The translations under genes were made by a program, and so were the position numbers. Shown piece by piece: positions 926 to 63,440 of a stretch of 64,000 nt of DNA; position 1 is the stretch's first letter, and each line of letters begins with the position of its first letter. The notes beneath the pieces were generated by a model that was given only the letters and a program-made list of their open reading frames with translations, had not been told where the DNA came from and did not search any database. The DNA comes from Owenia fusiformis (taxonomy: Eukaryota; Annelida; Polychaeta; Sabellida; Oweniidae), in the NCBI GenBank assembly GCA_903813345.2, contig CAIIXF020000011.1, positions 36,552,166-36,616,165 of the forward strand. The letters run 5' to 3'.

Positions 926-1408
926 TCAATGGAACAAATGGAACGGTCCAGCTATATTGTAACAGAACACAAAAACATTTCCACGTTGACGAGTAGATCA
1001 TAATCTATAAGTCAAGAAGTGATTCTAGTAAATAGCAATCAATTAATGCAGCCCACATGCGTCATTCAGTGAATTGCTAGCATTTTGCGCACACGTTAGA
1101 ATGCAGATCTAGAATTATATCTTTCAGTTTTCAATTTGTGAAACATTTTCTGTACAGTGCGAGTAAGATTAAAACTATAGTTTTATTTCAATCACACTAG
1201 CTCAGAGGCGCATACCTTTATCATTATGTTGAACAAGGTTAAATAAAGTTCTTTTTTACCTTGTACGTTTTGTCAAGAAAATGGTCCAAATGTTATGTTT
1301 ACTATCTTATAATTAAACATTCTTCAAAATCATTTACAAATTGCAAAGAGTTCATATCAAACCTGAAGAGTAAAACTGGGGGTCAACGGTCATATAAGAT
1401 CACAAAAG
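926..1408. other. Intronic or upstream DNA, nothing recognised
   Basis: AT-rich sequence with short ORFs only. I see no exon with splice sites and no recognisable repeat. Confidence 0.5.
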
Positions 1409-1455
1409 ACACCTGACAAAGATCTTCGAATTCGTGGAAGGTTATGACGTATTTT
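1409..1455 (+). repeat. Ninth, interrupted copy of the 108-bp unit
   Basis: cacctgacaaagatcttcg and gtggaaggttatgacgta repeat the exon 1 start, with a few inserted bases. The copy is cut by a MITE at about 1456-1738 and resumes at 1741 with tatacacatatc. The array is therefore older than the MITE insertion. Confidence 0.82.
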
Positions 1456-1738
1456 TACCACCTTGCCGGGCCAGTTCTAGGGGTTTTAGTGCTAGTTTAG
1501 AAGGCGTTCATTTTACTATATCGACCTGAGCAATATGTGACGTCATAGTGGCGGTCAAGAAGGCATTTCAGACCTGTCGAGAATGGATTTAACGACCGGC
1601 AATTTTCTAGATATCGTTCAGATGCGTAAGGTTTTCTTTCTGTTTCATTCCTGGTCGTTAACGGTGGTAATAAAACTAATAACGTCATTTCTGCGCATAA
1701 ATGACGTCATTTCTGCACAGAAATGACGTTATTGTACT
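1456..1738. mobile_element. MITE family A, full copy
   Basis: Starts near accaccttgccgggccag and ends near aatgacgttattgtacta. Related copies lie at 19519-19810 and 38803-38932, and an end fragment at 1-43. It is short, has no coding capacity and carries repeated aatgacgtcatttctgc motifs. Superfamily unassigned. Confidence 0.75.
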
Positions 1739-1740
1739 AT

Positions 1741-2585
1741 TATACACATATCTAATGGGTGACAGCCAGAAGAATGAACTGTACATTACTAAGCTTAATT
1801 TACCTTTCAGGCACCTGACAAAGAACTTGGTGGAAGGCTATGACGTATTATACACATATCTAATGGGTGACAGCCAGAAGAATGAACTGTACATTACTAA
1901 GCTTAATTTACCTTTCAGGCACCTGACAAAGAACTTGGTGGAAGGCTATGACGTATTTTACACATATCTAATGGGTGACAGCCAGAAGAATGAACTGTAC
2001 ATTCCTAAGCTTAATTTACCTTTCAGGCACCTGACAAAGAACTTGGTGGAAGGCTATGACGTATTATACACATATCTAATGGGTGACAGCCAGAAGAATG
2101 AACTGTACATTACTAAGCTTAATTTACCTTTCAGGCACCTGACAAAGATCTTCGTGGAAGGCTATGACGTATTATACACATATCTAATGGGTGACAGCCA
2201 GAAGAATGAACTGTACATTACTAAGCTTAATTTACCTTTCAGGCACCTGACAAAGAACTTGGTGGAAGGCTATGACGTATTATACACATATCTAATGGGT
2301 GACAGCCAGAAGAATGAACTGTACATTACTAAGCTTAATTTACCTTTCAGGCACCTGACAAAGATCTTCGTGGAAGGCTATGACGTATTATACACATATC
2401 TAATGGGTGACAGCCAGAAGAATGAACTGTACATTACTAAGCTTAATTTACCTTTCAGGCACCTGACAAAGATCTTCGTGGAAGGCTATGACGTATTATA
2501 CACATATCTAATGGGTGACAGCAGGAAGAATGAATTGTACATCGCTAAACATATTGAGTTCTTCCAATCCCAGATATCGTACGAG
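1741..2585 (+). repeat. 108-bp tandem array made from the acceptor and body of exon 1, open reading frame throughout
   Basis: Eight copies of a 108-bp unit begin at 1741, 1849, 1957, 2065, 2173, 2281, 2389 and 2497; the last copy is the true exon 1. Each unit joins about 91 nt of exon to about 17 nt of intron end (cttaatttacctttcag). Complete acceptors precede 1811, 1919, 2027, 2135, 2243, 2351 and 2459. The frame of exon 1 is open from 1701 to 2618, so each copy reads GDSQKNELYITKLNLPFR plus HLTKNLVEGYDVLYTYL. Any acceptor would therefore give an in-frame product differing by 36 residues. Confidence 0.93.
2459..2585 (+). CDS. ITPR-like: Exon 1 in window: RIH domain, RKNELYIAKHIEFF block
   Basis: 127 nt, enters in phase 2 and ends in phase 0. 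The acceptor is cctttcag and the donor is gtaaat. It encodes HLTKIFVEGYDVL followed by GDSRKNELYIAKHIEFFQSQ, which aligns with the YRKNQEYIAKQ block of IP3R1 and runs straight into exon 2. This exon is also the last copy of the 108-bp array described separately, so the true 5' end depends on which of seven identical acceptors is used. Confidence 0.88.
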
Positions 2586-5500
2586 GTAAATTTTGAACTA
2601 AATGTCATTCTGAAATAATCCATTGGTCACTTACGCATCACAGCATGTATTCTTTATTTATGATTATGTATAATGTCATAGCATGTCATTTTATATCCTT
2701 TTTTGATTTCTTAACTTCTAAATGTTATACAATAAGTATGTATTCTTATATTCGGAAAGCTTTTCTGGAATGAATTGTTTTCATGTTTTAATACGTTTTT
2801 CCTTTAAATAGAAACAGACTACGCGCATTAATATCATTGTAAGTGTAACATTTGTACCTGGTGTTAATCTTCTCCCTACTTTTCTGGTTATAACTATTTG
2901 ACTGGAATCTCTTGCTAAAATTCAGCATTTCTCTACAATATGTTTGCAATGTGCAGATGTATTTGTATTATCCTAAAAATATTTTCTTTTTTTAGTTTAC
3001 TCTAAAACTATATTTTAGTCTATAGCATGACTGTCTACTTGTATCATTCTGAAATTGACAAACTATTCTCTTATGCTAGTTTATGCTATTATATCTTCAC
3101 TCTTCTTTTCACTCTTCTGTATAAGTTGGGAAAGAGGAAGTCCCTGATGATTACTGATTGAAGCCTGTTTATGTTTTTGGCGTTTGGAATCAAATTATAT
3201 TGCATGTAAGTCCAAACTATTATAATCCAGAAAGACAATTAATATATAAACATCGACAGGATTCGATATGCTATCCAATGCTAGCTCTCCATTGCCAAAC
3301 TTATGGTGGAGAGTATAACTTGTTTCATCATGTTAACGATTCTATTCTTATAATAAAGGCTCTGGATAACTCTTGGAGGAAACAACCATCTGATCCAGAT
3401 TCCCTCAATCCGGTATTTATCATACGTAGGAAAACTTTTTGTTCCAATCAAGGCAAATAGTTAATTTAGAACAAATTGGCTGTAGCAAAGATATGCGACT
3501 AGTGATCGCTATTGAAACGCTGCCACACGGAAATCATGAACGCGTTTGCCATGGTCGGTACAATATATAATTGTTGGTAGATAGTGTGTCCCGTGGTTGA
3601 TACAATGTATCGCTGATGATAAATGCTTATACATATATTGCTATTGTCACTACATCAAGCAATGCTTTCACCTGTATTGTTATACCTGTATGGTAGATAG
3701 CTTGTTAACACACTGTACCATTCCGCTTATTTGATACATATTATGTATAAAGATATAAATTCATGCTTATACATATTGGTAGATAGCGTGTGAACATACT
3801 TACCATTCTGTTTATTTGATACATATTATGTATAAAGACGTAAATTCATGCCTATTATACATATTGGTAGATAGCGTGTGAACATACTTACCATTCTGTT
3901 TATTTGATACATGTTATGTATAAAGACATAAATTCATGCTTATACATATTTGTAGATAGCGTGTGAACATACTTACCATTCCGCTTATTTGATACATATT
4001 ATGTATAAAGACATAAATTCATGCTTATACATATTGGTAGATAGCGTGTGAACATACTTACCATTCTGTTTATTTGATACATATTATGTATAAAGACATA
4101 AATTCATGCCTATTATACATATTGGTAGATAGCGTATGAACATACTTACCATTCCGCTTATTTGATACATATTATGTATAAAGACATAAATTCATGCCTA
4201 TTATACATATTGGTAGATAGCGTGTGAACATACTTACCATTCTGTTTATTTGATACATATTATGTATAAAGATATAAATTCATGCTTATACATATTGGTA
4301 GATAGCGTGTGAACATACTTACCATTCTGTTTATTTGATACATATTATGTATAAATACGTAAATTCATGCCTATTATACATATTGGTAGATAGCGTGTGA
4401 ACATACTTACCATTCCGCTTATTTGATACATATTATGTATAAAGACATAAATTCATGCTTATACATATTGGTAGCGTGTGAACATACTTACCATTCTGTT
4501 TATTTGATACATATTATGTATAAAGACATAAATTCATGCCTATTATACATATTGGTAGATAGCGTGTGAACATACTTACCATTCTGTTTATTTGATACAT
4601 ATTATGTATAAAGATATAAATTCATGCTTATACATATTGGTAGATAGCGTGTGAACATACTTACCATTCTGTTTATTTGATACATATTATGTATAAAGAC
4701 ATAAATTCATGCCTATTATACATATTGGTAGATAGCGTGTGAACATACTTACCATTCATTTTATTTGATACATTTTATGTATAAGACATAAATTCATGCC
4801 TATTATACATATTGGTAGATAGCGTATGAATATACTTACCATTCATTTTATTTGATACATTTTATGTATAAAGACATAAATTCATGCCTATTATACATAT
4901 TGGTAGATAGCGTGTGAACATACTTACCATTCATTTTATTTGATACATGTTATGTATAAAGACGAAAATTCATGCTTATACATATTGGTAGATAGCGTGT
5001 GAACATACTTACCATTCTGTTTATTTGATACATGTTTGTAAAAAGGCATGACGCAATGCTTATACATTTATTGCTATTAGTAGATAGCGTGTGAACATAT
5101 TGTACCATTCTGCTTATTTGATACATGTTTGTATAAAGACATAAATTCATCCTTATACATATTGGTAGATAGCGTGTGAACATACTTTACCATTCTGCTT
5201 ATTTGATACATGTTTGTATAAAGACATAAATTCATGCTTATACATATTGGTAGATAGCGTGTGAACATACAGGGTGTTAAAAAAACCGCAATATACTGGT
5301 TCAATTATTTTCGTATTTTCAGGAAATAAAGAAGAGACTGTGTATTTACAACTCCTGTAAATGGTTAGTTGTAAAACATGATGCCTTGGACAATTGCTCA
5401 AAAGACAGTTGTACTAGGAAAATACGAAAAACACAGTCAGGGGTGACCGAAACCGCAAAAAAATTAAATAACTTCCCAACCATAGTGTTTTGGCTCTTCA

Positions 5501-11500: not shown

Positions 11501-14500
11501 CATTTGAACTCACATCGCTCTCCACCAAGCTTATTTACATATACATACGTAGACGTGTTTTCAAACGTACTCAGACTAGGATTTGCAATCTATTATAATA
11601 TATGTATGTGCGTGTATAATGTATATATTCATTTCATCTATAAGGCAATTATAAGTTCTTGTTTTGATTAGGGTTTAGCACACATATGTAACATGTACAC
11701 AAGAATAAATTAAACTCCCTCCATTCACTTGGCAATTATTTTTATGTTCGGTGATTTAAAAAGATTTTTTTTGTAACACAATTGCCGAAATATTGTAAAT
11801 TAAGAAATCGATTAAGATCCAAACAATGTCATGCTTCGATTTGGTATCAAATGGAGAATTCCAGTTGCCAATCATATGAATTGGAATGAACCTTGTATAT
11901 ATAATTAAGTTGATGAAATGTGATGATCAGTGATGAGGAATGGTGTGTGCTTTGTCCCTCAGTAGTATATCACCATCAATTATATCTTATTTAAATGTTG
12001 TTATTTATTGCATTTTGATGACATTTCGTAACAATAAGCACATTAACATTCATAGCAATTTGAATTTATATACTATTTATTCAATAAAATTGATGTTACA
12101 ATACACTACAATCAAGTCGAGATGATAAGTTAAAATTTTGATTTAAATCATTTCGTACATGTATATATTTTCACTGTGCATACTAACAAATATATTATAT
12201 AAACTAATATCTTTTTATATTTTTTAGAAAAAGTTGGAAATAGATGAGGAGTTCCTCTTTCTTGATCATCAGTTGGACCTCTTTGGAAAACTCTGCTATG
12301 TAAGTAATTGCATGTTAAAACTTTGGATCCGATGATCATCAAATATTAAAGCATAAATGAGTTATTGCATCATGTTGACCACAAAGTAGATCAAAATATG
12401 CGTATAACTATATCTATACCTAGACTCTTATAAATGTTCCATAGTTCAACATGTATATATATGTACGGTCACATAAAAATGGAACACTCACATATGTTTT
12501 AGTTATTTTAGCATAACACAAGACATAAGATATGTGACCGCCAAAATCAGCTATTGCAATTGTAAAGAATTTGTGTTTTTTTATAATTTTAGGTAAAATT
12601 AATTCTTTATTTTTCATTATTTGGACATAATTTTTCTCAATTCTCACCAGTATATCATTGTTTGTTATTGGTAACCTCGGTAGTCTTATGAAACTTAGAA
12701 CAACATTTTATTATTATTGCGACTTTTAGATATGTTTTTGTACCATTTACTTGAGGAATCATTACAACTTTGAAAAAAGTCTGAAAATCAAGGGTTCTAG
12801 GCTAAACTGGAACTACGTTATGACAAAAAGCCAAGCCAAATCAACTTTCAGATAAAATGTGCATATATAGTAGTTAGAGGCTAAGAATGACATATCAGTG
12901 GTTTTATTGATGGCAGTAAATGTATTTCGATTGTTAAGCAAATTTTAATTCCAGGGACGCAATGAATTTGCCATCAATGTAATAACACAGGAACTTGGCT
13001 ATCTGACATGGCAAGAGGCATTCCTCTGTCTAACCAATAAGCAGCTACCAGATCAACTCAGGGCAAAGTATTGCCATCTCATCATCAGTAGGTGTCATCA
13101 ACCCATTTCTCATATATTGTCCACGTTATTTACTAGATAGTTTGATTTTGTATCTTTAAAGTTTATATTTAATTAAACGATTGTATTTAGATTCGTAAAA
13201 TACATATATGGTTTGTAGTTACAATACCAGGTACGAATACTTAATTGCAGGTGAAACTTATGATCAAACTCTATTGATACGAATTTGTAATTAAGATGCA
13301 ATTGAGATGCAAATATATGTTATTGTTTGCTACTTGTGGTTAAATTAACCGTCGTTCTTTTCTACTCAGGTCTCTTTGTTGACGTTGGTGAGAACACATC
13401 TGTATTGGATCGTATTAACCTCACCTTTGTCTATGATGACATAGGTTTGGGTAACTCTGACACGATTAAAGAAAACAAAGACAAGGAAGGGGTAGGTGCA
13501 ATTTGCAAAATAATTAAAACTCGTGATATACTATATATACTCAAAACATGTCAAACGTTTTTCCTCCTCAAATGAGTTTGCCCTTTTGAAACTCGTTTAA
13601 GAGTATGCATGTAAAAAATAGACAAATTAAGTAAAACGCATATAATCCATACATTTTCAATTATAGATGACACCAAGATCATCAGCAACCACTAAATATT
13701 TCCCACAACTTCGTGATTGGATCGAGGTGTTCTTAGAAGAGAACAAGGATATGACGGCATCTCTGATTGGTCACAACATGCTCGTCGAACAGGTATGTAT
13801 GCCTCAAAAATAAAAAGGAATAAATACAACATAATTTATAGATGACCATATATAGAGGTTTGTCTTTTTATGGAAATGTTTCCCTTCTCTTTAATAATTC
13901 ACAAATTTAAAGTGCATTTTGCAAAGCCTTCACATAATATTAAAACCTTTTGACTGTTATTCTTTGATACAATTACTAAGTTGTTACCTTTTTATAGCAA
14001 TTACAAGGCTTTCCTGAATATAGAACACACTGTTGGCTATGTGGTAATTAGATATCACAGCATATTATACAGACCCAGGGACAACAATTATATATTTTCA
14101 GGTATTGCGGCTGGTTCATTACCTCGTAAAGTATGGTTACTATGGCCAGACTGATGATATTAAGAAACTACTCGGACCTTTACTCAGCCTACTTGATGGT
14201 CGTAACGACAAACCATACCCTGTCGTTTCAGGTACACGGATACATTAATTTAACAATAAAAATACTGATACAAATACTATTATATACTAAACATAGTGTT
14301 ACTGTGGTACTAATACATATATCTTATAATACATATTGGTAAATATTACTCCCCAGTAAGACATATTGTTATTAATGCAAATGTATAAGATTGTTCATAC
14401 TTACAGGTGTCTCGGAAAATGTCCTTTCTCACTACAGAAAGGTTGGAAGATTTAGGCAGAGTCCCGAAACAAAGGCAATTGTAGATGCAAAGCATCAGTA

Positions 14501-17500
14501 GGTTGAATATTCCTAATACAATATATGGAGCTCAGTATTAATTCCCAACATGACGAGAACTTAAATGAAAAATGTCACGTGCCTTGTGAAATTGTTGATT
14601 TTTTGAATTAATATTTATAAACATATTTAGCAATGTATAAAAGGCAGTTACATAGAAACACAAACTTTGATTTAGAATTTAAGATTCCTCAATTCACTGA
14701 TCTGAAATAGCATAATTGTTGAGCCTTCGATAATACTTGTTGCCTTTTTCAAGATGTCTGAACTTGGCAGGATACTGGTAGATTTGACATTGACAATACA
14801 ATACAAAACTTGATCTTTGACCTTGCAACCGCCAACCCCGGGGAAACCAAATGTAACATATGTCTCTGTTGAATTCAGGTTTGACTTTATGAATATGGAT
14901 AGCTTCCTTGATCTTCCTATCAAAACATTCCGACTGAGTCAATGATTTTGTAATCCCATAGTAACTTATGTGTTTCATCAAATGAATGTTTAGCGATTGC
15001 AGACTTGTCTCGGTTAATTCTTGAGTTTGTAATCTCAGTATATTTTATGTACTTCATCATTTTTGTACTTCTTCTTCCTTGATCTTTCTATCAAAACATT
15101 CGGACTGAGTCAATGATTTTGTAATCTCAGTATATCTTATGTGCTTCATCAAACGAATGTTGAGCGATTGCAGACTTGTCTTAGGTTTATTCTTAAGGTA
15201 TCCCTATGTTCTCTTATTCTACTTCCCTTAGCTCTACCTGTCTTTCCTATGTAAAGTATTGGCAATTCCTTTCTTTGTTGAAAGATACACTGGGATTACA
15301 AAATCATTGACTCAGAGTCCAAATAATTAGGAAGATTAAGGAAGCTAACCATATTCGTAAAGTCAAACCTGAACTAAATAGAGACGTAAGACACACTGTT
15401 TCCCCAGGTCTGCTTGAGGTTGCTAGGTCAAGATCAAGTCAAGGTCAAATATAACAGTTTCTCACCAAATTCAGGCATCTTGAAAAACGTATTGTCGAAA
15501 GCTCGATAAGCTATTTCAGGTTAGTAAATTGAGATATTTTAGCGCTAAATGATCATATATCTATACAAGGAACACTTTTGAAACATAATATTTCATATTA
15601 ATTTCATTTCGCATAGGGCAATGGAAGTGCTTGACTTGTTCTTTAACTTTCGGTTCAATACGCGATTGGAGAGATTTGTCAGTGAATTCAAATCCATTCA
15701 CCAAATGAGTACAAGTCCATACACCAAGTCATCTCATGGATCAGAGTTAGGATCACTTCTCTACGAAACGTTCCAGCTAGAGGAAAGCAGCAGGTATAAT
15801 GTGTACTGCCAGTATGATAATATTTAGAAAATGTCATGAATTAACCATAGCTAAAGATGAAATATCATAATATCCTAAGAATCATTGTATATTACAACTT
15901 TTCAAACATAGCCAATAAAACCATATCCATGTTCTTGTTTTTTAGCGTCAATAGTTGCGCAATGAGAGTTTTAAATGAGATGTTCACGGAGTCATCCTAT
16001 TTCAAAGGCTTCGCTTTGGTGGACATATTACTAGACCTGTCGCATTATGAATATGATAAGATGGTCACCCAGTCAATGCAGCTTCTTAATCGCTACTACT
16101 CGGCTCATGACTATTTATTCAAGAGAGCCGTGCAAGCTGAGGTAAAACTAGAGATTCACTCAGTATAAAGCTTTGGTAAAACAACTGTCACATTCCATGA
16201 TTAAAAGAATGTTCATTGATTATTACATAATCATTTTTGGAATCATTTTCATATACAGTTTCAAATTTAAAAACAAAAAACTCAGAGGGATAAAATATTA
16301 GAATTGCTACAATATATATTGTTATATTTCAGATTCTGATAACTGACAAATCGTGTGAGGTTCTTCACAAATTGCGTGCAATGCTGCCAGGTATGAGGAG
16401 ACTCGCTACATCTAAGATGAACCAAGAACAGACGAATATGATGAGTAACATTCTCGATAAGATGATAGGGTAAGATACAACACGCAGAGCACAACAGAGT
16501 TTTGAGTAGCTCGATAAGGTGCCAAAAATAAGTCAAAATAGATTACTGACGTCCCAGAAACTTAAACGTAGCGGTATGTTCAACAGTACGCAGACTTAAA
16601 GGGCATCCTTTGCCATTGATTGAATAAATATTTCACACATTATATTTGCGTTCTTCCCATTCATGTTCCAGATTTTGTCACTTGGAAAACGAGCCAGAAG
16701 AGAGACACCCAATGAATCAGAATATCCTATACAATCATGAAGTCGTCGCAGATTGCTTTAACATTCTGTCACAAGAAATAGACGTGAGACTCCTGGTACG
16801 TAGTCAAGTTATTTGATTTTGAAAAAGCAGTATAATTGGTTTAATGTATAGTGTAAAAATTACTGAGCCTCTATCTGTGAATGTTCGTATAGTACAATCA
16901 TGTAGCATGCAGTTTAGCATGGATAATATTGTTTGTTTCACTAGTCACATGGACAAAAGGCTAATATATTCCTGAAACTGTCTAAATGTACCTAGATTTG
17001 TCTGAAGTTCCATCACATTTATGTTTCTAACTAAGACCATTTCGCTTAAATAGTTATAAACATATATAAAAACATTAATACAGTTTCGTTTTTTTTAAAT
17101 TCCATAACATTTCAGTTTGGTAAAGTCAGATAGTTTAGGCTTTAATATAATACATACTATTGAATTCTGTATATCTTTATTGTAAATGTGTATTTGGATC
17201 TTCTTATATTGATAAAAATATACCAAGATCAACAATTTTTTTTGATTGATATATCCGATGCAGATAACACTAATCTGGTATACATTGTAGTCATTCTAGT
17301 ATACTTGTTTAACATTTAATTCATTTAGCCTATCACTTTGCATTGATCTATTTGATCTTCTTACTCATGTAGCAAATCCTCTTGCATCGAACTAATTGAT
17401 TTTATCAACATTCAACTTATGTACCGAATTACTTTGCATCGATCTTTTTAAGTTTCATAACATCCAATTCATGTAGAATCACATTGACTTGTTTAACATT

Positions 17501-20500
17501 CAACTAATGTTGTCAATGACTTTGAATTGTTTACATTCAACTCACGTAGCCAATGACTTTGACACATTTAACATTCAACTCACGTAGCCGATGACTTTGA
17601 AATGTTTAACATTCAACTCATGTTGCCAATGACTTTGACACATTTAACATTCAATTCACGTAGCCAATGACTTTGACTTGTTTAACAATCAACTTATGTT
17701 GCCATTACATTAACTTGTTTAAAATTCAACTCATGTTGCCAATGATTTTGACTTGTTTAACATTCAACTCACGTAGCCAATGACTTTGAATTGTTTACAT
17801 TCAACTCACGTAGCCAATGACTTTGACTTGTTTACATTCAACTCACGTAGCCAATGACTTTGACTTGTTTACATTCAACTCACGTAGCCATTGACTTTGA
17901 CTTGTTTACATTCAACTCACGTAGCCAATGACTTTGACTTGTTTAAAATTCAACTCACGTAGCCAATGAATTTGAATTGTTTACATTCAACTCACGTAGC
18001 CAATGACTTTGACTTGTTTACATTCAACTCACGTGGCCAATGACTTTGACTTGTTTAAAATTCAACTCACGTAGCCAATGACTTTGACTTGTTTAAAATT
18101 CAACTCACGTAGCCAATGAATTTGAATAGTTTACATTCAACTCACGTATCCAATGACTTTGACACATTTAACATTCAACTTATGTTGCCAATGACTTTGA
18201 CACATTTAACATTCAACTCCAATGACTTTGACTTGTTTAACAATCAACTTATGTTGTCATTACATTAACTTGTTTAAAATTCAACTCATGTAGCCAATGA
18301 CTTTAACTTGTTTTACATTCAACTAATGTAGCCAATGATTTGCTAATCTGACCTATATAATATTAATCTTATTAATCTTAACATAGGATACGGTAAGAGC
18401 CAAAGTGTGCAATTAGAGCAGATTATACTTTATTATATTGTTTACAACATATATAGGACACTGTAGCTTTAACATGTATTGTAATAACTTCCGTATGATT
18501 GACTCGTGATTCTTTGGTTGTGATAATGATTATGTATGTTAAGCACGCCCGGTGATCGTACAAAATGGATGGAGGGGGGGGGGGGACGAAGCGATTTCTG
18601 CAAGAAAACTCAACAAATATGGAAGATTTATTTTTCAAGAGAAAATTTACAACTGAATTGCCAAATGAATAGGCGCAGTGCATGGCAAAATATGTTAGGT
18701 CATCTAGTATTTTTTGAACTAATAAATAGGTACACGTTATTATCACAATACTAATGACATTGCTCACTTTTTAAAGTTAGTTTCCATGCATTATACAAAA
18801 AATAATCGAAAAAAATTAATATTGGATGGAGGGGGGATAACGTGTATATAAGACATGATAAGACATGCTACTTGAATTTATTTTTATGACTCCAAATTTT
18901 CCAATTTTTCATTCTCAAGAGATATATGTCCAGTTTCTTACTGGGGTACTGAGTTTAGATTTTTAAATACACGAGTTCTTGTGAATTTGTTCTATCGTAA
19001 AGACATATAAATCCCCCCTCCATCCACTCCCCCCTCCATCCAATATTAGCAAAAACATTGACTTTTGCACGTTGGTGATGATGCGCCATTTTTAATTGAT
19101 CTCATATCTTAGAAGGGTATCAGTTCAAAAAATACTAGATGACCAACATATTTTGCGATGCACTGCGCCTATTCATTTGGCAATTTAGCTGTACATTTTC
19201 TCTTGAAAAACTAAATCTTCCAAATTTGTTGAGTTTTCTTGCAGAAATTGCCTAATCCGCCCCTCCATCCATTTTGTACGATCACCGTGCGTGTTAAGGG
19301 TTAGAAGGGATGTTGGACAGTGCATTAGAATAACGATGATTTTTAACATCATGACAGTTGAACTTTCCAATCTAATAGTGGTTATACGTTTTTCTTATTT
19401 ACCATTATAGAACATTCATGTTTTGTAGTTACCATTCTAATAATTTCTAGAGCTGTGTTGGAATATATATTCAATATTGAACATAGTGTGTTTCCAAACC
19501 TTGGGTATTTACTATTATTACCAACTTGCCGGGCCAGTTCTAGGGGTTTTAATGCTAGTTTAGAAGGCATTAATTTTACTATATCGACCTGAGCAATATT
19601 TGACGTCATAGTGGCGGTCAATATAGCCGGTTAATAACCGGCAATTTTCCCCGGGAAATTAGATATCGTTCAGTGCGTAAGATTTTCTTGCGGTTTCAGT
19701 CCTGGTCATTAACGGTGGTAATAATACTAATAACGTCATTTCTGCGGGCAATATAGCCCTCGGTCCAATATTTCACTATATTGACCGCAGAAATGACGTT
19801 ATTGTACTATCGGTACACGCGTTTTCATCTTTTTATGCAATTATTTTCTCATTACCCTTAGAATTGTAATTTTCTTTTAGATTACATCTCTCACGTGCCT
19901 ATTGTTTATAGTTTGATTTTTATTATTTGCCCTTTCCACTCGATATGTTTTCATGTAATATTGCCATTAGTGTATTATAATAAGATACACATGGCAGTGA
20001 AGAAATTCAAAAAGTTCATAATAATCATTTCAGACGGCGCTTTTATATGGGTATGTCAGAATGTGATCTGTGTGTGCCTTTGCTTTGAACTTTTATTGTT
20101 TGATATATCAACAATGTCAAATTAATATATATTCATAGACAATCAACCATTAATCTTCACCACATTTCTCAACGTCATGTGTATTTTCTGAATGCCATTA
20201 AATTTAATCATAACTTTTATATCAATAATAAGTGTTTCATTACATTATCACTGGAGTTTGTTTTTCCTTTTCAACCTTACAAATCGTTCACTCTTGCCGT
20301 ACCAAAATATTTCGAATAATTATGTTGTATTTTTTAGGACCAATATGCTGGCTTGAAAAATATCTTCAAAAAGACGTTTAAGTTGATGAAAATGCTATCC
20401 AGGGGGAACTGTGTAGTGCAACATAGACTGTTCAACAGACTCGACAAGCTACTTGGTGTAAAGGGTGCCGAGTCAGAAATGGCCGAGTGCCTAACAGAGG

Positions 20501-35500: not shown

Positions 35501-38500
35501 TAACTTTATACAGTTAAATCAATGAAATATACTGAGCATGTCATCATCAAATTGTATGATTTAGACTAGTTATGTTTTTACTCTACATCGTTCGATCTTT
35601 ATCCGACAGTTCATGCATGCAAAGCCAGACTTGGAACTGTACTTCTATTTCATATGTATATGAGTATATTTACATATATAGGTATATACACTCCCCTCCA
35701 TATGTTTGACAACCTTAGCTCCCCCATTGAACTACGTGTAAAAGCCCTTTTACTTTTGAATTTTTATTTACTTAACCTGCGATGGAAATACTTATACTAT
35801 TGATTGAAACGTAATTTGCCCTTATTTCCAATACCTCCAAATTTTAACTTTGAAGCTCTGTAACTTTAGTATTCATTAAGTAAGCTAAACACTTAGTGTA
35901 CAAAAAAGTTACACAATTCAATTTTCGATATATATTTCTATATGCTGAATCTTTTACTGAAGAGATATCCTGATTTCTGATTTCCTCCGAACCCACCTTT
36001 TCCCATTGGTTTACATGGGAATGACGATTTTCAAAAATTCATCAAATTTATCATCAATTTTCGACGTATTTGTAATCGAGGAAAAAGATTGGCAAAATTA
36101 GAGGGTATTGGAAATGAAATCAAGATACGTGTCCATCAATATTATAAGTTATTATATATTATTGCAGGTTAAGTGAATAAAAATTCAAACGTAGAGAGGC
36201 TTTAACACGTATGTCAATGGGGGGGGGGAGCTAAGGTTGCCAAACATATGGAGGGGAGTGTATATGTGTGTGAGACATGAGTTATTTCTAAAGCTGTATG
36301 TGACTAAGTAAAATCTTATTAACTAGACAAGATCCGTGTGTTAATTGCAATTTTGTTACTTCTGATGTAACGAAATGAAACAATATACTAACAAAGGCTA
36401 CTGAAACATTATATTATTTCTTTCAGTTTTTCTATTTTGGTATTTTTCTATTTTAAAAGACCATTTGCATGTGTGCGTCTTCATATTAATTATACAAATG
36501 CATACAAGTTGATTGCCACATTATTATAAGATGAGAGATGTTTATTATACGCATATAGCTGTTCTATATATTCATTTTGTTATGCGACATTATGTTGACA
36601 GCAAAATGAAATAGTATAAGAGCGGTTATTGTTGTTATCTGTCAATATATTCATACAAATGAGTATTATACTTCATAGAATACTCTACTAACTATTTATT
36701 AAGCACTTTAACAACTTTTACTTACCTACAAAATAGGTGTATTATACTTCATATTTACATGTGTTTGAGCTGTTATATTGTTATATGCCATTATATTTAA
36801 TGAAGAAGTGATATATTTTACGTTTACAGGTGATGGAACAGTTCCAAGAGAAGTACGGGGCTGGTTCTGAACAACTTGACATCAGAAGTGATGCCAGGAA
36901 GGTGAATATATAGAATGATTAGTACTAGATTCCAAATACGTGACACTAAGCCTAATTGATCCAAACACAGTCAGGTGTCATAGATACTTGATGAATACTT
37001 TTAATAGAACTTCAAATGTTTGAATAAAATGACCCAAATCTTCCCGCTGGCCAGAAATTCTTTTAAAATCATGCAGTTTTTTTCACCATGCTGTGCATTT
37101 TTCGCATGCTTTTTTCCAAAACTGTCAAAAAAGGCCCCCTTGGCAGCTCTCCTTAGCAAAAACACTCACCCCAGGTAAATCCTGGCTCCGGGCCTGAAAC
37201 ATACGAAGTCTGCAACAAATTATTGATAAATAATGTTTAAATAACTTCATATATTTGAATAAAATGAACTTACTCATAGGCATATGAGGAATACTACCAA
37301 GCAGAAGAAGAACTAAATGTGCAGTTGAACATCTACTCAGTCAACTTCAGTGTTATCTATGGAGGGCCAAATGATGTAAAGACACAGATTTCTTTCCCTA
37401 ATGATATAGGTATGTGATAACTTAACTACTTCATTGTCAATTGTGAGGTGGCGCCATGAGTAATTTTGAAATAAGTTACATTCAATATACTTATAAAATT
37501 CAAACTTCTAATCAATCCCATCATCTATGCTATTTAATTTAATGGAAATATGGAATCAATTTTATTTCACCACCTTGTAGAGTACACTGATGTTAACGGA
37601 AATGAGAAATCAATTTCATTGCCGTTGTTGTTCAGTTTAATGTGATATTTCACTACCTTGTAGAGGGCACTGATGTTTATGAAAATAAGAAATCAATTTC
37701 ATGGCCGTTGCTGTTCAGTTTAATGTGATATTTTACTACCTTGTAGAGGACACTGATGTTAACGGAAATAAGATATTAATTTCATTGCCGTTTTCTGTTC
37801 AGTTAAATGAGATATTGTACTACCTTGTAGAGAACACTGATGTTTATGAAAATAAGGAATCAATTTCTTCCTCTTTGCTGTTCAGTTTAATGTAATATTC
37901 CACTGTCTCATAGCGTACACTAATGTTACTGGAAATTAGGAATCAATTTCATCGCCGTTGCTGTTCAATAAAATGAGATATTGTACTACCTTGTAGAGTG
38001 CACTGATGTTAATGGAAATGTGAAATCAATTTCATGACCGTTGCTGTTCAATAAAATGAGATATTGTACTACCTTGTAGAGTGCACTGATGTTAATGGAA
38101 ATTAAGAATCGATTTCATTATATTTTCTGTTCAGTTTAATGTGGTATTGTACTGCCTTGTAGAGTACACTGATATTGGCGGAAATGAGGAACTCCCATTA
38201 GGACAAGAGTTTCAAGAACACATAAAGTGCTTTGTGAATGATGATAAGACCCCATCACAAAGATACCAACTTGCTGGAAAGCTAGTGGAACAACTCCAGT
38301 AAGTTAGGTTTTTCTTATTCGCCATATAGACTAGCACATTTCCTTCAGTCTAAGTATATAGGACATGTATCAGTGTTTGTTACAAAGAATGACACATATT
38401 ATCTCTTGTTTTAGAATATCAGCTTCCCACACCCAATTGACAGAAAGGGATCGATTAGAACAGCAGATGCTTGACATCAAATCTTTACAGTTGTTGAGAG

Positions 38501-41500
38501 CTTCAATCCACAATGAAATAGTGAGACTACCAGATGACTGGGAGAATGATATCACAAATAACAAAAAGTAGGGAAAATGTAAACCATAATACAACTTCCG
38601 CTGAATAACACAATGGAATATATTACTTGACATTAAAAAATCACCTTGCCATCTCATATTGATACTGGCCACATAGTTAATCTCTCCCAGTTAATAAACT
38701 TTAGAGGTTATTTACCGGGTTGTATCAACTATGGGTTTTATTCCAATGAACAATATGATATTTCGCTAGGGCCCGGAGGGGGAGAGTGAAATATCACATA
38801 TTATTACCACCTTGCCGGGCCACTTCTAGGGGTCTTAGTGCTAGTTTAGAAGGCATTCATTTTAAGTTATAGACCTGAGCAATATGTGAAGTCATAGTGG
38901 TGGTCCATATTGCCGGTCAAGAATGCAATTAATGTCACTATGTTTGAGACAGACCTTCCATACTGAACTGGACTTGAGACTGAGTAACTCTCTTATGAAA
39001 ACAGGGCTGACAAATATCTTAACTTGCTCTAAAATAGGCCTGCAAAAATAGTTCAACTGACACTTGAGCAGTAGAGCCAACAAAAATTTCTAAAAAGCAA
39101 GTCCAATGTACTGTTTATAGAACCCCTATTCTTACTATTGAAATGGATTCTAGTTATACTGTTCCACATAAATCTACTTGTTAAGACTCAATAAATTGAG
39201 TTCTACTGAAAAAAGGGAATTTCAGCAATGGTTAATGACTTTACTTGGGGATACAATTGACTTCAAACATGCATATCATCAAGTAAAGGTTCCATTGCTG
39301 ATCAGGAGGCTCTTCGGATCCAAGAACATGAAACAAGTCTGAATTTGAACATTAATAATGTTTTGAACACAAAAAATCATTCACTGTGTCATTCCTACTT
39401 GAATGCTGACTTGGTACGTTGTTGATTTTACCACCTTTCATAATGGTCATGATTGCTCAGTCATCCGTGGCAGTTACATAATGATCTAAGTACCATTTGA
39501 TTGAAGACAGAATAGGCCTTTTACTGCTAGCACTGCTATCTTCGTATTTTTAAAGCATTGCTCAGAATTGTAGTTGGGTATACTTTTTGTGTCACGCTAT
39601 ACCGACCAAACTGAACGAAATATAAATACTTTGGCTCCCACCCGGAAGCTGAAGGTGTGAGGTTTCATATCCATCCGCCAAAAGGCATGACCCCTATATA
39701 GTCCATTTAAAAATGTGTGACTTCGTTCTAAAAAAACGCCATAGTTGGCTTCTATGGTACCTAATATGCCTTTTTGGTTTCAAAATGAAGAAGAGTTCAA
39801 CTTTCATTTTAATTACGAAAATAGCGATGTAGGTCAAAATAGTTCCAACGTGAGCATGCTAACTACGCGTGCGCCCGTCATCTCAACCAGACTCCCTATA
39901 ATTTGATGTAGATCGATCGAACCCCTATATGAACAAGTACATTTTGATATATAAAACTATGGTGGGGGTAAGCGTTTCATAGTTGGTCACGAACGCCATA
40001 TGTGCAAAGAAGTGTACATAATTTTCGAATTTCGTTTTGGATTACGGTACTCACACCTGAATACAAAATTTGTAAGAGGAATTGAGATGTGAATACGATT
40101 TTAGTGAGAGGGATTAGGAGGAGGGACAATATCACTTGGTTCAATATCAAAAATATTCCACAGTGATATTCACAAGGAAGAAGTAGTATCATACGATATG
40201 TATATATTATTTATATTATAGTTGTGTATTTTATCATACTTAATCGATTGTATCCGAAGCTGTATTTAATTTTGCATTGAAATGGTGTTGAATATTTCAT
40301 TCGCATATTTTACTATGACTACTATTCTATGAATAATTTTTATTGGTCATTTAGGAAACTCAAGAGGATAGAAGAAGCACAGAACGCTCTCAATGAGCAT
40401 GATGCGATATTGAAAGTTCTTCCCCACCTGTCAAAACCAGGGGATGACATCATAAGAGAGGTCCTGGCATTCGTTGCCTGTATGCTGTTTGGTGGAAACA
40501 AAAACGTTCAGGTGAAATATAAGATATCATGTATAGTATTTTTCATATTTTGGAATGCATGCAAAAATGATTATTATTATTAAGGATTTAAGCACTGAAC
40601 TCAATGCTTAGTTTGTAAATATATAACATATCGATTGTTACTCTCTAAAATTATTACCAAGATATTTAAGGAAGGAACGATCCACAAATACCTTTTACTA
40701 ACTAAGCATTGGGTTTGTTGCTTATATCCAATTCACACATGGCAGAATAGTTTTATGAAATAAAATAGATTTCAACTACAGAGGTAGGCCATTTCCATCC
40801 AGTGTCTTGATGGCTGTGTGCATCCTCCCTCTGAGTGATCTAATATTAACTTGTAAGTGCCTAGATATTCAATTTTTAGAACGAAAACAATGAATCAGTT
40901 GAATATACAAATAGGTAGAGTGAACAAGACTGTCAACTTGAAATTATGAAATTGATGATATCTAAAAATAGAGTTTAAGAACTACTAGAAAACTAAAAAT
41001 TAGCCATTATTGGTTGTACATATTATTTGAATTATGATCGACTGAAATTTGATATATGATGTCTGATTATGTGTGGAATATTATTGTATTATGAAACTTC
41101 AGACCCATTTTAAAATAACGCAGACATTTTTATTGTAAAATTGTTAATGCATTAGCTTATAATTTTATTCCAACTATATTTTAATAGTTCTCTATTTTAT
41201 AATGTCAGTCCGCTATATGCTTTCATGAATGTTTTGCTATGAAATGTTTAGTATTTGTGTGCATGGTTAATTGCATTGCTAGGCAAGCATGTGTGACTAT
41301 TTCTATGGAACAAGAGAGGAGAGATTCTTTGCCGCAGTTAAAAATCGTATGAACTTATCTGCAATTGCAACCAAAGAAAAGTAAGTTAACCCAGAAAACT
41401 TTAGTTAGAGGACATTCACTTGTACACAGCATTGTACACACTCAACCTTGCACAGTTCAATCCTTTATTTTTTATAAAACATTTTGCAAGTTGGTGATTT

Positions 41501-44500
41501 TCGGCTATTTTAGAGAGAAATTGTTTCAAAATGGATGTATACACTGCTGTGACGTGGGTGTTCCTGATAACATACCGTTGATGTTGTTCATGATTATGTA
41601 ATAATGTTTTATTCTAGACGAGTATGGTGAATTATTTCTATGGCACTAGAGAGGAGCGATTTTTTGGAGCAGTTAAGAATCGCATTATGTTATCAACGAT
41701 AACAATGAAAGAGAAGTAAAAACATGATTTATACGATGTATATGCTTTCACTTACACATGTCTATTGCCCGTACACGCTCGTTTGATGAGCTACACGTGT
41801 AAAACATGTCCATACGCACTAAAGTACTTGAAAGAGCTTCTCACAATCCAGCTCACAATTTGCCAGTCTTGTTACATGAAAGTTGTTCTATATTCACTAT
41901 GTAATAATTGGTTTCTCTCTAATGTACTTAGCATCTCATATGTTCCTCTTTTGTTTACTTGTATGTATCTCTTGGGGATCAAATATGAAGGGAATGTTTC
42001 GGTCATGTTAAGTGTTCAATTTTAACGCATCAAATAGTGTCATTGTGATGTCGTTTGGCATGTTATCATTCCGTCTCCACTTTTGTTAACTGTTTCAAAT
42101 CATGTGAGGTGTTCGAACTAGCACTTGTCCGTTGATGTGATGTGTTATGTTGGTGCCAATTGTCAAATGTTTCTGCCTCCAGTGGGAGTACTTACACAAG
42201 TTCATATGTCAAGGGAATTATTGAAATCTTCAAGTGTGAACATTTGTTCTGCTATATTTGTTTTTAATAACCGAATGTATTTTAAAATATTCCTGCCTTA
42301 TATCACTAACATACAAGTCAGAGAGCATTATATATAGGACTTTAATATCTCTGAATTAAAAGGTGCAATATATATTCGAAACATGCTACTGTAGAAAAAA
42401 TGTTTGACAAACGATAAGACTAAAAAGTAAAGCAACACAGTGAAATACACTTCCATAGGTTTGTCAACCCCCTTTTCACTTATCAAAGTCATTTTATATT
42501 TGGTAATATTAAAGAGTGTTAAAAAATTAATGTTTTATGGCCACTCAATAGGTTTGTTAGCTAAGATATGATCATTACTGTAAACTCTCATTTACTGGCC
42601 ACTTAATCCTAATGTCTGTTCAATCAGGCCCCCTTTTTGCAAAACTATTTTTTGCAAAATCATTTAGCGTGTCTGTTATTTTTAAAACACGAGCCATAGA
42701 TATACGGCACATGTTGGCGTAAAAACCAAGTGATAAGGGGTAGAGGGGCAAAGTTGATGCCAATGAAATTGAAATTTATAAATTATTGATTGTAACCTTG
42801 CTCTTTAAAATACAAAAAGATGATTATTGTTCTGTTTGAAAGATCAGCATTTAGCATATTGAATTCTAAAAACAGTAAATCGCCAAGTATTCACTAATCG
42901 CGTTCTCTCACGGATTTTAGAGAAAAACATTTTTTCAAGAACTACCCAATAAATATATTCGAATTTTTTGCGTATTTTTTGAATGTCAATACAAACTGTT
43001 GTAATATAAATTATGATGATACCATTTTCCTAATTTTAGATATGATTTTTCATTCTCCCCTACCCCCAATTTTTCAATTTCACTATTTTGATATTCATGC
43101 CGTTGCTAGGTGGTTGCTAGGCAATATCATGGACCGAAATTATATTGGAACAATACCAAGTCATACATTCATTCATCTGTATACCAAATTACTGATTGGT
43201 ATTTGTTTAATATCTTGAAATATGAATGCTAAAGACAAATACAGGTTGAACTTGAAAATGCGGACTATTCAATGTCACGGAAATATCTAAAATGTACACT
43301 CCCTAGGTCACGTTGACCTCGATTTGACCTTTGTTTACCTTCATTTCTTGTAAACCAATAACTCTCCGTAGAGGTAATTGGATAAGGTTTACAACAACAT
43401 TATTACCAACAATATTAAAATCAAAAAAGTAACAATCGCAAGGGGGGTGTTGCGACTCAGTGTTATATAAAAGGTTGAGAACATTTGGGTTAAACTGAAG
43501 GCAGTAAATATCAAATATTTCTTATTGGATGTATTATGATGTCTCTAATGAATCACAACATTCTGTTTGTCATTCCTACACCAACTATACCAGTGTATTA
43601 CTGAAGGAATACATTGGTTTAACAGTATGTTTTTTGTGCCATGCAATAATAAAATCAATTTGCAAACAAAAACATTAAAGATTGAGTGTACATCTATATC
43701 AGAGAGTAAAGAACACAACATACATATTTTCCAGACGGTCACTCATGGCTCAACATCAGGCAAAGATAGACGAGGCAATGGAGCAAGCAAAGGCTTTGAG
43801 GAAAGCTATGAAATCTGGCCAGATAGCAGCACAGGTACTCGCTTAAATAAATATTTCGTGGTTGTAGATTTTTTGGAAAGAAATTGAATTTCTTAACAAA
43901 TACATTTATAGTGCATGGCGGAACTCAAATGTTGTTGAACATTATTTGGGATACTATTGTGTAAATTGTCAAACCATTTGCCAAATTAATATTTGAAATT
44001 AACAGGATACAAAATAAAAACAAAATAACATTAGTCATGACACTGAAACATCGACAGATTTTAAATTTAGAAAAGTACATTTCTTAACATATTTTTCAAC
44101 ACTAAGGCTGTCAAAGAACGATTGGTGAGTCAGTTAAAGTAGAAATTAGTCCAGCTTTAGTTTGTGTCATTCAATGTCCTCCAATTGATACACACTCCTT
44201 AGTGCCATATCATGTGCTTTGTCTTTACATATAATTATAAATAAATGTTAGGTCGTTGCTATTGTAATGAATTGTTTGGTTGGTACATTCCCCTCTATAG
44301 GTTTGGCAACTAGAATTTGATAACATGTTAAAGCTTGTTAATGATTACTTCTTACTCGACTATAGTTCGGAGATTTATGATAAAGTTAATTATGTTTTAA
44401 GCATCATGCATAAGCAAACGATTCAGAAATGGTCATATTGTTGCCAGACTGGAATCAGCATAAAGATAAATAGGTATATAGTGTAAATACACATAGTGCT

Positions 44501-47500
44501 ATACGTGTATGCTCATCATCGTTTGTAACATTCACCGTCTAATAAACCAGACAGAAAGAGGAAATGCATGTAATTATGTTAAACCGATGCTGATGCGAAA
44601 ATTTCACTCAATAGTCAATATATTGTAAAGTTTACCCTGTAACTGAAGATTTGGACCAGAGAAAGGTGACTTAATTTAGACCAGCTTAATAGTTCAGTTC
44701 GCACATGCTACTAATTGATGTAATTTAACTTAAATTACCATCTTGTGAAATCACCTAGAATTGACATCCCTCATAAGATCAAGTACAAAATTTTGTAAAT
44801 GTCCACACATTTAATTATGCTCTCATGTTTAATTAAATATTTATATATACTGTTATAGGAGATATTGGCTGCAAATAAAACTCTAGGCTCTACAATGATA
44901 GGCTCCCGAATGTCAATTGGGAAGCGAAAGGGTGGACTACTTAAACCAGGGACTGTAAGTCGACTACTTATAGTAATATAGTATTTAAAAACAATTATAT
45001 CCTTTCAATTTGCAACAATGCTCTTTTACTCCTTAACTTTTCAAAACAATAAATATATTATAAATTATTCCCAAATACTTCTTTCGTATTTCGTTGTTCT
45101 GTCCTAATAATTTTTCTGCATATATTGCATGTATATACGAGTCTCGTACATACAGTTTAAATGTTGATATTGTGTAGCTCGCAAAAGAATCATATCAATC
45201 AATGTAAGGTGAACGTCAAACTAAACAGAGAAGTATAAGAAAGGATTGTGCAACCCCGTATTGGTTTATATGTGCAAGGCCATAAAGTGGGTATTTGCAA
45301 ATCATGTTTTTCATACACTCTAAATACAATAATTATAATAGTATACAAATCATACATGGTGTTCCAAAAGTAACAGGACTGGTGCTGGCATTTTGTTAAA
45401 TATGCACAAATCGTCTTCAAAATTTTATACAATGTACTTTTATGTATCGTTACTGACACTGCAAAGTTTCAACAAAATATATGAAACCCGGGTAGAGTTA
45501 TGGTTGCTATAGTAATGTGACATATCATTTTGTCCATGCCATATCAAAGTTGAAATGCAACAACTGGTTGGAATTACATTTGTTTTACATCATTTGATAT
45601 TCCTATGTATCCTCTACTTTGAAAAATAGGCACCTCTTTGGTCAGTACAAGAGTAGTTCTCTGTATTCATGACCCAAACACATGAGTGAATCCATTTGAG
45701 GACATGTCACGCAGGGTCAATTGGACAATTTTGAGAAGGTCATTCTCATCTTTAAATGTCTTACAGCACTGATTAGCATTCCGTCCTCAATATGAGTAAA
45801 AATTAGATATTGCATGATCAGAAGAGTATGGTGCATGGGTTTTAGACCTCAAGACCTAGCTCCTCTATAGCTGCATGGTCTTTAAGTGAGACCTGTGCGC
45901 AGGCGTGCTATCTAGATGGATGACTTGCTTCGAATTGGGCCTTTTCAAAAACTCAACCGTGAATTGTTCAGACTGTTATACATTCCAGGAAATTGAATAA
46001 ATATTATGATCATTATGAACTTATACTTGGATCTGAGTTGTATAGCTACATCTTTACAACAAAGCAACTAATGAAATAAACAAGAAATGTTGTATTATAA
46101 TAGGTCAATTAGATACTTTCTTCAGTAATACAAAAATGTTAGATATCACATTTTCAGGAAAAGAATTGCTCCGGGTATTCGGATGTCATGTTACTATAGT
46201 AACCGTAACTCCTACCGCATTTCATCATTTTTTCTGAAACTTAACAATTTCAATTATAATCTTTAAAGGTACAATTTGTGAAAATTTGAAGACACTAGGT
46301 GCAAAATTGACAAAATGCAAGCACCAGTCCTGTTACTTTTGGAACACCTTGTATATGTCATTCTGGAACTAACGAGACTAAGTGAGCTTTAGATATATGA
46401 AGCAAATATTTCTTATGTGAAGGCAACGAAAAAAACATATCCTTGAAGATTCTCGAATATCTAATTATTGCAGTTACAAGACCGATCGGGTAGTAGGTGG
46501 ACTTATAACGTCCTTTGGGATTCTCGAATATCTAAATATTGCAGTCCCAATGCCGATCTGGGAGTAGACTGTCTTATTATTGATAATATCCTTGAAGATT
46601 CTCAAATATCTAATTATTGCAGTTCCAACGCCGATCTGGTTCTAGACGGTCTATTAAATTACTTGAGGATTCTCGAATATCTAATAATTACAGTACCAAG
46701 GCCGATCTGGTAGTAGACTGTCTTATAATAGTCTTGAAGGTTCTAGAGAAATCAAATTATTGCAGTCTCAACGCAGATCTGGGGGTAGACCGTATTATTC
46801 AAAATCATCGAAGATTCTCGAATACCTAATCAACATCTTGTAGTAGACTGTCTTATGATATCCTTGAAGATTCTGGAATATATAATTATTGCAGTCCAAA
46901 GGCCGATGTGGTAGTAGATGATCTTATTATAATATCCTTGAAGATTCTCGAATATCTATTTATTGCAGTCCCAATGCCGGTGTGGTAGTAGATGATCTTA
47001 TTATAATTTCCTTGAAGATTCCCGAATATCTAATTAGTGCAGTCCCAATGCTGATCTTGTAGTAGACAATCTTATTATAATTTCCTTGAAGATTCTCGAA
47101 AAATCAAATTATTGCAATTCCGAGGGCGATCTGGAAGTAGACTGTCTTATTATAATTTCCTTGAAGATTCTCGAATATCTATTTTTTGAGGTAGACTCTC
47201 TTATGATATCCGTTTCTCGAAAATCAAATTATTGCAGTTCCTTGGCCGATCAGGGAGTAGACTGTCTTATTCAAATATCCTTGAAGATTCTCGAATCTAA
47301 AATTATTGCAGTCCCAAGGAAGACGATCTGGTAGTAGACTCTCTTCTCGTGATCCACGAAAACACCTGGGTGGAACTTCTAATATGTTACCCGACATGCC
47401 ATCTATGACAAAAGGTCATATCAGAGGTCACACTCCAATGAGTAAACAATCGCCACGTATTGATAGGCCCCAAAGCGTATTTGCTACGCCAGGGTTATGT

Positions 47501-62769: not shown

Positions 62770-63440
62770 TGTAACTGTGTGTCTGGTTGCTACATGTAAG
62801 TAGCATTAATTGCATGATGTTATTATGCCACCACCAACAAATGATGACACATTGCTACATGTAAGTAGCATTAATTGCATGATGTTATTATGCCACCACC
62901 AACAAATGATGACACATTGCTACGTAAGTAGCATTAATTGCATGATGTTATTATGCCACCACCAACAAATGATGACACATTGCTACATGTAAGTAGCATT
63001 AATTGCATGATGTTATTATGCCACCACCAACAAATGATGACACATTGCTACATGTACGTAGCATTAATTGCATGATGTTATTATGCCACCACCAACAAAT
63101 GGTGGCACATTGCTACATGTAAGTAGCATTAATTGCATGATGTTATTATGCCACCACCAACAAATGAAGACACATTGCTACATGTAAGTAGCATTTATTG
63201 CATGATGTTATTATGCCACCACCAACAAATGATGACACATTGCTACATGTACGTAGCATTAATTGCATGATGTTATTATGCCACCACCAACAAATGGTGG
63301 CACATTGCTACATGTAAGTAGCATTAATTGCATGATGATATTATGCCACCACCAACAAATGAAGACACATTGCTACATGTAAGTAGCATTAATTGCATGA
63401 TGTTATTATGCCACCACCAACAAATGATGACACATTGCTA
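62770..63440. repeat. 65-bp tandem array, 10 copies with a three-unit higher-order repeat
   Basis: The unit is tgctacatgtaagtagcatt, aattgcatgatgttattatg, ccaccaccaacaaatgatga, cacat. Copies 5-7 and 8-10 share the same order of variants (gtacgt with ggtggc, then gaagac, then gatgac), so a 195-bp block was duplicated. It follows the donor of exon 43. The 60-codon frame here is a repeat shadow. Confidence 0.92.

Follow-up and report, generated by a model that had tools for sequence, protein, structure and literature searches.

The window analysed here is a stretch of 64,000 nucleotides from the annelid Owenia fusiformis (C11:36552166-36616165), and it contains part of an inositol 1,4,5-trisphosphate (IP3) receptor gene, a calcium-channel gene in which tandem arrays lie across intron-exon junctions. 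The gene was recognised from the Owenia fusiformis protein P0001 (2743 aa), named as this receptor, to which the translated sequence of an exon region was matched. P0001 was aligned exon by exon along the window with tblastn, and splicing of the DNA at GT-AG borders reproduced the protein exactly. The part of the gene in the window reaches from 2459 to 62735 on the plus strand and comprises 38 GT-AG exons, and the gene starts and ends outside the window. For a map of the whole gene 200 kb of flanks were needed, and the extended coordinates (ext) used below equal the window coordinate plus 60000. The whole gene has 67 exons, and GT-AG borders were verified at 67 of 67. An earlier reading of the window, made from its letters alone and called the sequence-only reading below, had estimated about 43 exons for the gene, which had to be corrected to these numbers, while its assignment of arrays to three of the exons was right. 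As given in the available part of the genome report (PMC9977687), the Owenia assembly comprises 505.8 Mb with 43.02% repeats, and 99.29% of the transcripts are supported by RNA-seq.

The three arrays of the window were found at the expected positions with units of 108, 83 and about 74 bp, and in each the unit consists of the end of an intron, the acceptor and the start of an exon. Array A1 (1738..2542, plus strand) has about 7.5 copies of the 108-bp unit, which are 98% alike and contain the last 23 nt of the intron, the acceptor and the first 85 nt of the exon. Array A2 (37572..38191, plus strand) has about seven copies of the 83-bp unit, which are 82% alike and combine about 54 nt of intron end with about 29 nt derived from the exon. 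Array A3 (about 46437..47343, plus strand) has 13 recognisable copies of the roughly 74-bp unit, including the real one, which are 72-85% alike and combine about 45 nt of intron end with about 29 exon-derived nt. A1 is thus young, and A2 and A3 are older. In all three the last copy on the 3′ side belongs to the real exon, as the sequence-only reading had described. The P0001 exons 2459..2585 (coding from residue 515), 38163..38298 (residues about 1565-1610) and 47312..47560 (coding from residue 1812), all on the plus strand, each start in the last copy. The array sequences are unrelated, also as described before: unit sequences and breakpoints vary between the arrays, and a mobile element or motif common to the units was therefore rejected.

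In A1 the reading frame is open through all copies, with 36 codons per unit. The residues of P0001 at this place are those of the last copy (SRKNELYIAK), and the other copies read SQKNELYITK or SQKNELYIPK. The last 22 intron bases are identical at the seven full acceptors of A1, and about 20 nt before the AG six of the seven carry the motif TACTAAG, the exception being TCCTAAG; this motif may be the branch point. A degraded copy of the exon-start sequence, devoid of the intron end, lies apart from the array at 1407..1453 (plus strand). This eroded copy and A1 are set apart by an unrelated sequence of about 260-285 bp (window 1480-1737), in which ATGACGTCATTTCTGC-like motifs are repeated and which is possibly an insertion into the array.

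Further arrays were found in the rest of the gene. Eight copies of a 77-bp unit straddle an acceptor at ext 22676-23313, where the exon starts at 23282, and a 93-bp unit in two blocks (ext 47358-49609 and 50604-51569) precedes the exon at ext 51625. The 93-bp unit scored 15 on the acceptor of this exon and 7 on the next best of 66 acceptors, with a shuffle z of 7.9. Two arrays straddle donors: about 49 copies of a 41-bp unit at exon 4 (ext 25369-27377, donor after 25391) and 2.6 copies of a 42-bp unit (ext 132974-133085, donor after 132997). In both of them the real exon holds the first copy on the 5′ side, the mirror image of the acceptor arrays. The IP3-receptor gene has five acceptor-straddling and two donor-straddling arrays in total, and at 7 of 7 straddled junctions the protein model P0001 uses the copy with the intact exon. 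A 31-bp array (ext 39151-41305) reaches up to an acceptor at 41341.

Arrays of the same kind are present in other genes. A paralogue of the IP3-receptor gene lies convergent, tail-to-tail, about 83 kb downstream (C11:36740501, minus strand). It has acceptor arrays with units of 73 bp and 31 bp, a donor array with about five copies of a 40-bp unit (par 14174-14369 in paralogue coordinates, minus strand of C11) and a short array adjoining an acceptor (par 17396-17499). One of its exons (par 13864-14369, minus strand of C11) is flanked by both the 73-bp acceptor array and the 40-bp donor array. In a ryanodine-receptor (RyR) gene on C8 an acceptor is straddled by 1.9 copies of a 114-bp unit. For the RyR/IP3R-associated domain eight matches were listed, including the window's own; among the others were C11:36740501 (minus strand), C11:11854117, C11:3226203, C5:7267051-7267727 and C8:32193313, and the match at C8:32193313 is the ryanodine receptor. 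Between both IP3-receptor genes, a presumably WD-like gene has two arrays across acceptors, with units of 31 and 81 bp (ext 200174-200530 and 205291-205932), which lie before exons ending in GT donors. In the same interval, in a transporter-like exon that we take to be SLC22-like (ext 158972-159222, minus strand), the donor CAG/GTAATATTTC is present four times, in a 63-bp array that adjoins the real donor with about 4 nt of the exon. Both gene names are our assumption from the sequence letters and not the result of a family search. These two genes were met via their arrays and lie outside the survey; they entered no enrichment test, and the WD-like gene was included only in the 10:3 ratio given below.

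The recurrence noticed in the sequence-only reading therefore stood, with five acceptor arrays in the gene, two in its paralogue, one in the ryanodine-receptor gene and two in the third, unsurveyed gene. Its restriction to acceptors did not, because in the three mapped genes three donor-straddling arrays (ext 25369-27377, ext 132974-133085 and par 14174-14369) were found beside eight acceptor arrays, and the presence of these mirror-image arrays rules out an acceptor-exclusive rule. The ratio of 8:3 could not be distinguished from 1:1 (two-sided p 0.23), and with the WD-like gene it is 10:3 (p 0.09). The common architecture, which had been regarded as a regularity of its own, follows from geometry. 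In an array across an acceptor the intact exon must come last in the 5′ to 3′ direction, and in an array across a donor it must come first. Since the two orientations were both seen, the common architecture does not require a special mechanism, and the point to be explained is the frequency with which units straddle junctions.

The arrays are probably ordinary minisatellites that were seeded by short duplications across exon edges and that are tolerated since splicing uses the complete exon. The start would have been a short tandem duplication of about 70-115 bp, with an intron-exon junction that by chance lay between its ends, and the array would then have grown by slippage or unequal exchange. 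Under exon definition, the splice site at the other end of the exon would be paired with the closest copy in the array, and the extra copies, here called decoys, would become intron. If exon definition picks the copy that is nearest to the other splice site of the exon, the gene would still be functional.

A coverage control in the window was the first of two counts on whether junctions are straddled more often than by chance. With 60-bp windows and a score of at least 60, a local copy was present for three of the 38 acceptors, for none of the 38 donors and for two of the 38 exon middles, compared with 11.1% of 1500 random positions in introns with array bases included, so by simple coverage there was no acceptor enrichment within the window. 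This result would fit pure chance in a minisatellite-rich genome with zero excess at junctions, as would the 19 array families present in the 121 kb of the gene. However, coverage overcounts long arrays: an array is scored at every base, while it holds the real junction once. As this is unfair to junctions, each array family was also counted once by its unit length. Families were taken from Tandem Repeats Finder (TRF) with a period of at least 20 and a span above 80 bp, related blocks were merged by hand, and straddling was judged by eye. In the window, a post hoc discovery set, three acceptor arrays were seen and about 0.37 were expected (p 0.0065, and p 0.04 when donors are included). In the whole gene, with 66 acceptors and 66 donors, 0.62 straddling arrays were expected per side, while five were seen at acceptors (p 0.00046) and two at donors (p 0.13).

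The count was extended to held-out DNA, that is the IP3-receptor gene outside the window, the paralogue and the ryanodine-receptor gene. There five acceptor arrays were seen against 0.98 expected (p 0.0034) and three donor arrays against 1.0 (p 0.08). Exon counts are approximate for the paralogue (about 40, from 39 tblastn clusters) and for the ryanodine-receptor gene (about 38, from 37 clusters, one of which is a decoy copy), and arrays of the latter gene with a span below 80 bp or beyond 37 kb were excluded. The 31-bp array of the paralogue matches the exon side over only about a dozen bases, with mismatches; when it is left out, the held-out count is 7 instead of 8. All of these statistics were estimated with the Poisson distribution, and they come from three genes at two places in the genome.

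Several results weigh against the view that the arrays are ordinary minisatellites which met exon edges by chance. In the whole gene seven straddling arrays were seen against 1.24 expected under uniform placement (p 0.0003), and in the held-out DNA the numbers were 8 and 1.98 (p 0.001). When 43% of the intron was discounted as recent repeats, the p value was still 0.007 for the whole gene and 0.026 for the held-out DNA. Wholly intronic arrays were not significantly near exons, with 4 of 12 families within 60 bp and 2.23 expected (p 0.10), so that an age effect alone is doubtful as the source of the excess. In addition, the AG is intact in 43 of the 44 decoys of seven acceptor arrays, whereas about 39 were predicted from the mean conservation of the other dinucleotides (hand-summed). 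The per-array counts also oppose pure chance with zero excess, which is regarded as improbable. The earlier statement that chance placement is hard to accept was thus supported by the unit-corrected count, and it was not supported by coverage.

The excess and the lack of significant exon clustering of the intronic arrays would be explained if exon edges, and acceptors above all, were hot spots of tandem duplication in Owenia, e.g., because of R-loops, nucleosome edges or slippage at the pyrimidine tract. The two further arrays that adjoin acceptors, at ext 39151-41305 and at par 17396-17499, point in the same direction. Nevertheless, such hot spots seem unlikely. With intron turnover taken into account the held-out excess dropped to the value given above, with p 0.031 for acceptors alone and p 0.26 for donors alone; the 43% used for this is the genome-wide repeat share from the accessible text of PMC9977687, and it was applied to introns by assumption. 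Dispersed copies cover 19.6% of the non-array intron bases, a value that comes from a blast search against only 222 kb of other sequence and the gene itself, and their share increases with distance from exons, being 1.6% in the nearest 50 bp and 27% at more than 800 bp. Because dispersed repeats increase away from exons, the intron interiors are younger and some discount is reasonable. Moreover, the ratio of acceptors to donors is not acceptor-specific, only three genes were covered, and the family merging and two of the exon counts are approximate. Taken together, the excess of straddling units is moderate, and it is larger for acceptors but not significantly so. A part of it may come from the sequence beside exons being older than the repeat-filled intron interiors, and a part may come from a real mutational preference for exon edges.

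The conservation of the decoy splice sites bears on another explanation, namely that selection retains several acceptors, either for variable protein insertions (in A1 multiples of 36 codons) or for more reliable splicing. The open frame of A1 in every copy, the likeness of its seven full acceptors in the intron end and in all but one TACTAAG, and the nearly complete retention of the decoy AG would be in line with this. The intact decoys were 7/7 in the 77-bp array, 6/6 in A1, 7/7 in A2, 9/10 in A3, 2/2 in the 73-bp array of the paralogue and 6/6 in each of the 31-bp and 81-bp arrays of the WD-like gene. The scoring had twelve rows, three of which were not used: the 31-bp and 40-bp rows of the paralogue were a few bases out of register, and no decoys came up in the 93-bp row. 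The open frame of A1 was not accepted as proof of function. A stop in newly coding sequence could lie only in the 23 nt of intron, and every third unit length is divisible by three, so an open 108-bp unit is not improbable; the unit lengths of 83, about 74, 77 and 31 bp are not divisible by three. Among the decoys of A2 and A3, the acceptor end is conserved to no greater degree than the remaining intron part (0.88 against 0.88 in A2, 0.92 against 0.93 in A3). Furthermore, the protein model takes the last copy only, and donor arrays occur too. At donors the GT is kept in 41 of 46 copies of the 41-bp array and in the single copy (1/1) of the other correctly registered donor array, but in the 40-bp array of the paralogue, judged by eye, it is kept in one of four extra copies and lost in three, which read CAG/CTAGGT and not CAG/GTAGGT. 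Selection for several acceptors is therefore considered very improbable; the decoy acceptors give no sign of being removed and no convincing sign of being kept.

Several other features were observed. Large, purely intronic minisatellites are present in the window at 3691-5270 (88-bp unit), 17458-18342 (38 bp) and 62787-63440 (65 bp). At ext 182805-188541 on the minus strand lie long reading frames of a retrotransposon, which from its letters, without a family search, we assume to be Ty3/gypsy-like. A Pfam search of nine reading frames yielded a family for one of the nine, and the comparison of one of the nine frames with PDB gave no match. At 41283-41380 and 41618-41715 the window contains two similar 98-bp exons, ASMCDYFYGTREERFFAAVKNRMNLSAIATKE and TSMVNYFYGTREERFFGAVKNRIMLSTITMKE, in the same frame, each with its own acceptor and donor. 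They are likely to be mutually exclusive exons of the IP3 receptor, and P0001 contains the first of them. Such a tandem exon duplication resembles the arrays in that it is local copying near an exon of the same gene, but in it the whole exon was copied together with both splice sites, while the arrays carry the border only.

The statement of the sequence-only reading that no such system has been described was too strong. As far as the available excerpts go, boundary tandem repeats that alter splicing were described in human genes (PMC2812944) and at the donors of IFI6 (PMC4526556), and the minisatellite of IFI6 (G1P3, 6-16) supplies several splice donors (Turri et al., 1995, cited in PMC4526556). 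In both IFI6 and Owenia a tandem array lies over a splice junction and the splice site is present in several copies, and the units of A1-A3 include, in the manner of IFI6, a splice site together with exon sequence. The unit of the IFI6 array is reportedly about 12 bp long. In IFI6 the donor is concerned and, according to the part of the source at hand, downstream copies are used in mRNA, whereas in Owenia mostly acceptors are concerned and the protein model uses only the copy with the intact exon. De Grassi and Ciccarelli (2009) reported that duplicated human genes have internal tandem repeats at their exon-intron boundaries (PMC2812944, in the text available). These are likewise minisatellite units, some above 60 bp, at exon-intron borders, and they shift exon or intron status. 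However, they are from recent human paralogues with variable copy number and transcript support, as far as the excerpt tells, while the Owenia arrays are from invertebrate channel genes of one assembly and are known from DNA and a protein model.

Tandem duplication has also been connected with the origin of introns. Introns are reported to originate from tandem arrays (Zhuo et al., 2007, as cited in PMC2812944), and tandem genomic duplication is reported to produce new introns (PMC4974935). Intron gain of the latter kind is reported for potato and for flies. There too the duplicated stretch carries splice-site sequence, but the duplication makes a new intron with both splice sites, whereas the Owenia unit carries one and lengthens an existing intron. 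Intron gain was rejected for A1-A3, as their units supply the acceptor only, the used donor lies outside of the array, and the array is at the 3′ end of the intron. In the part of the open-access literature that was searched, no report of acceptor-straddling arrays in annelids was found, which is not proof of their absence in print. The Owenia arrays are set apart by mostly acceptor-bearing units, by the lengthening of existing introns and by their recurrence in channel genes that are found across animals.

A1 offers a natural test of how the spliceosome chooses among seven near-identical acceptors, which differ mainly in their distance to the donor. There is a small chance that tandem duplications in Owenia are seeded preferentially across exon-intron junctions, more so at acceptors than at donors, and that introns become longer as their own splice-site borders are copied. 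In that case many genes would have ladders of intact decoy acceptors, which would be read by the rule that the acceptor attached to the full exon is used. If the excess at exon edges held genome-wide, introns could lengthen by border copying and the mutational bias would become measurable; if it failed, the arrays would be a clean case of a striking rule that is explained by geometry and tolerance.

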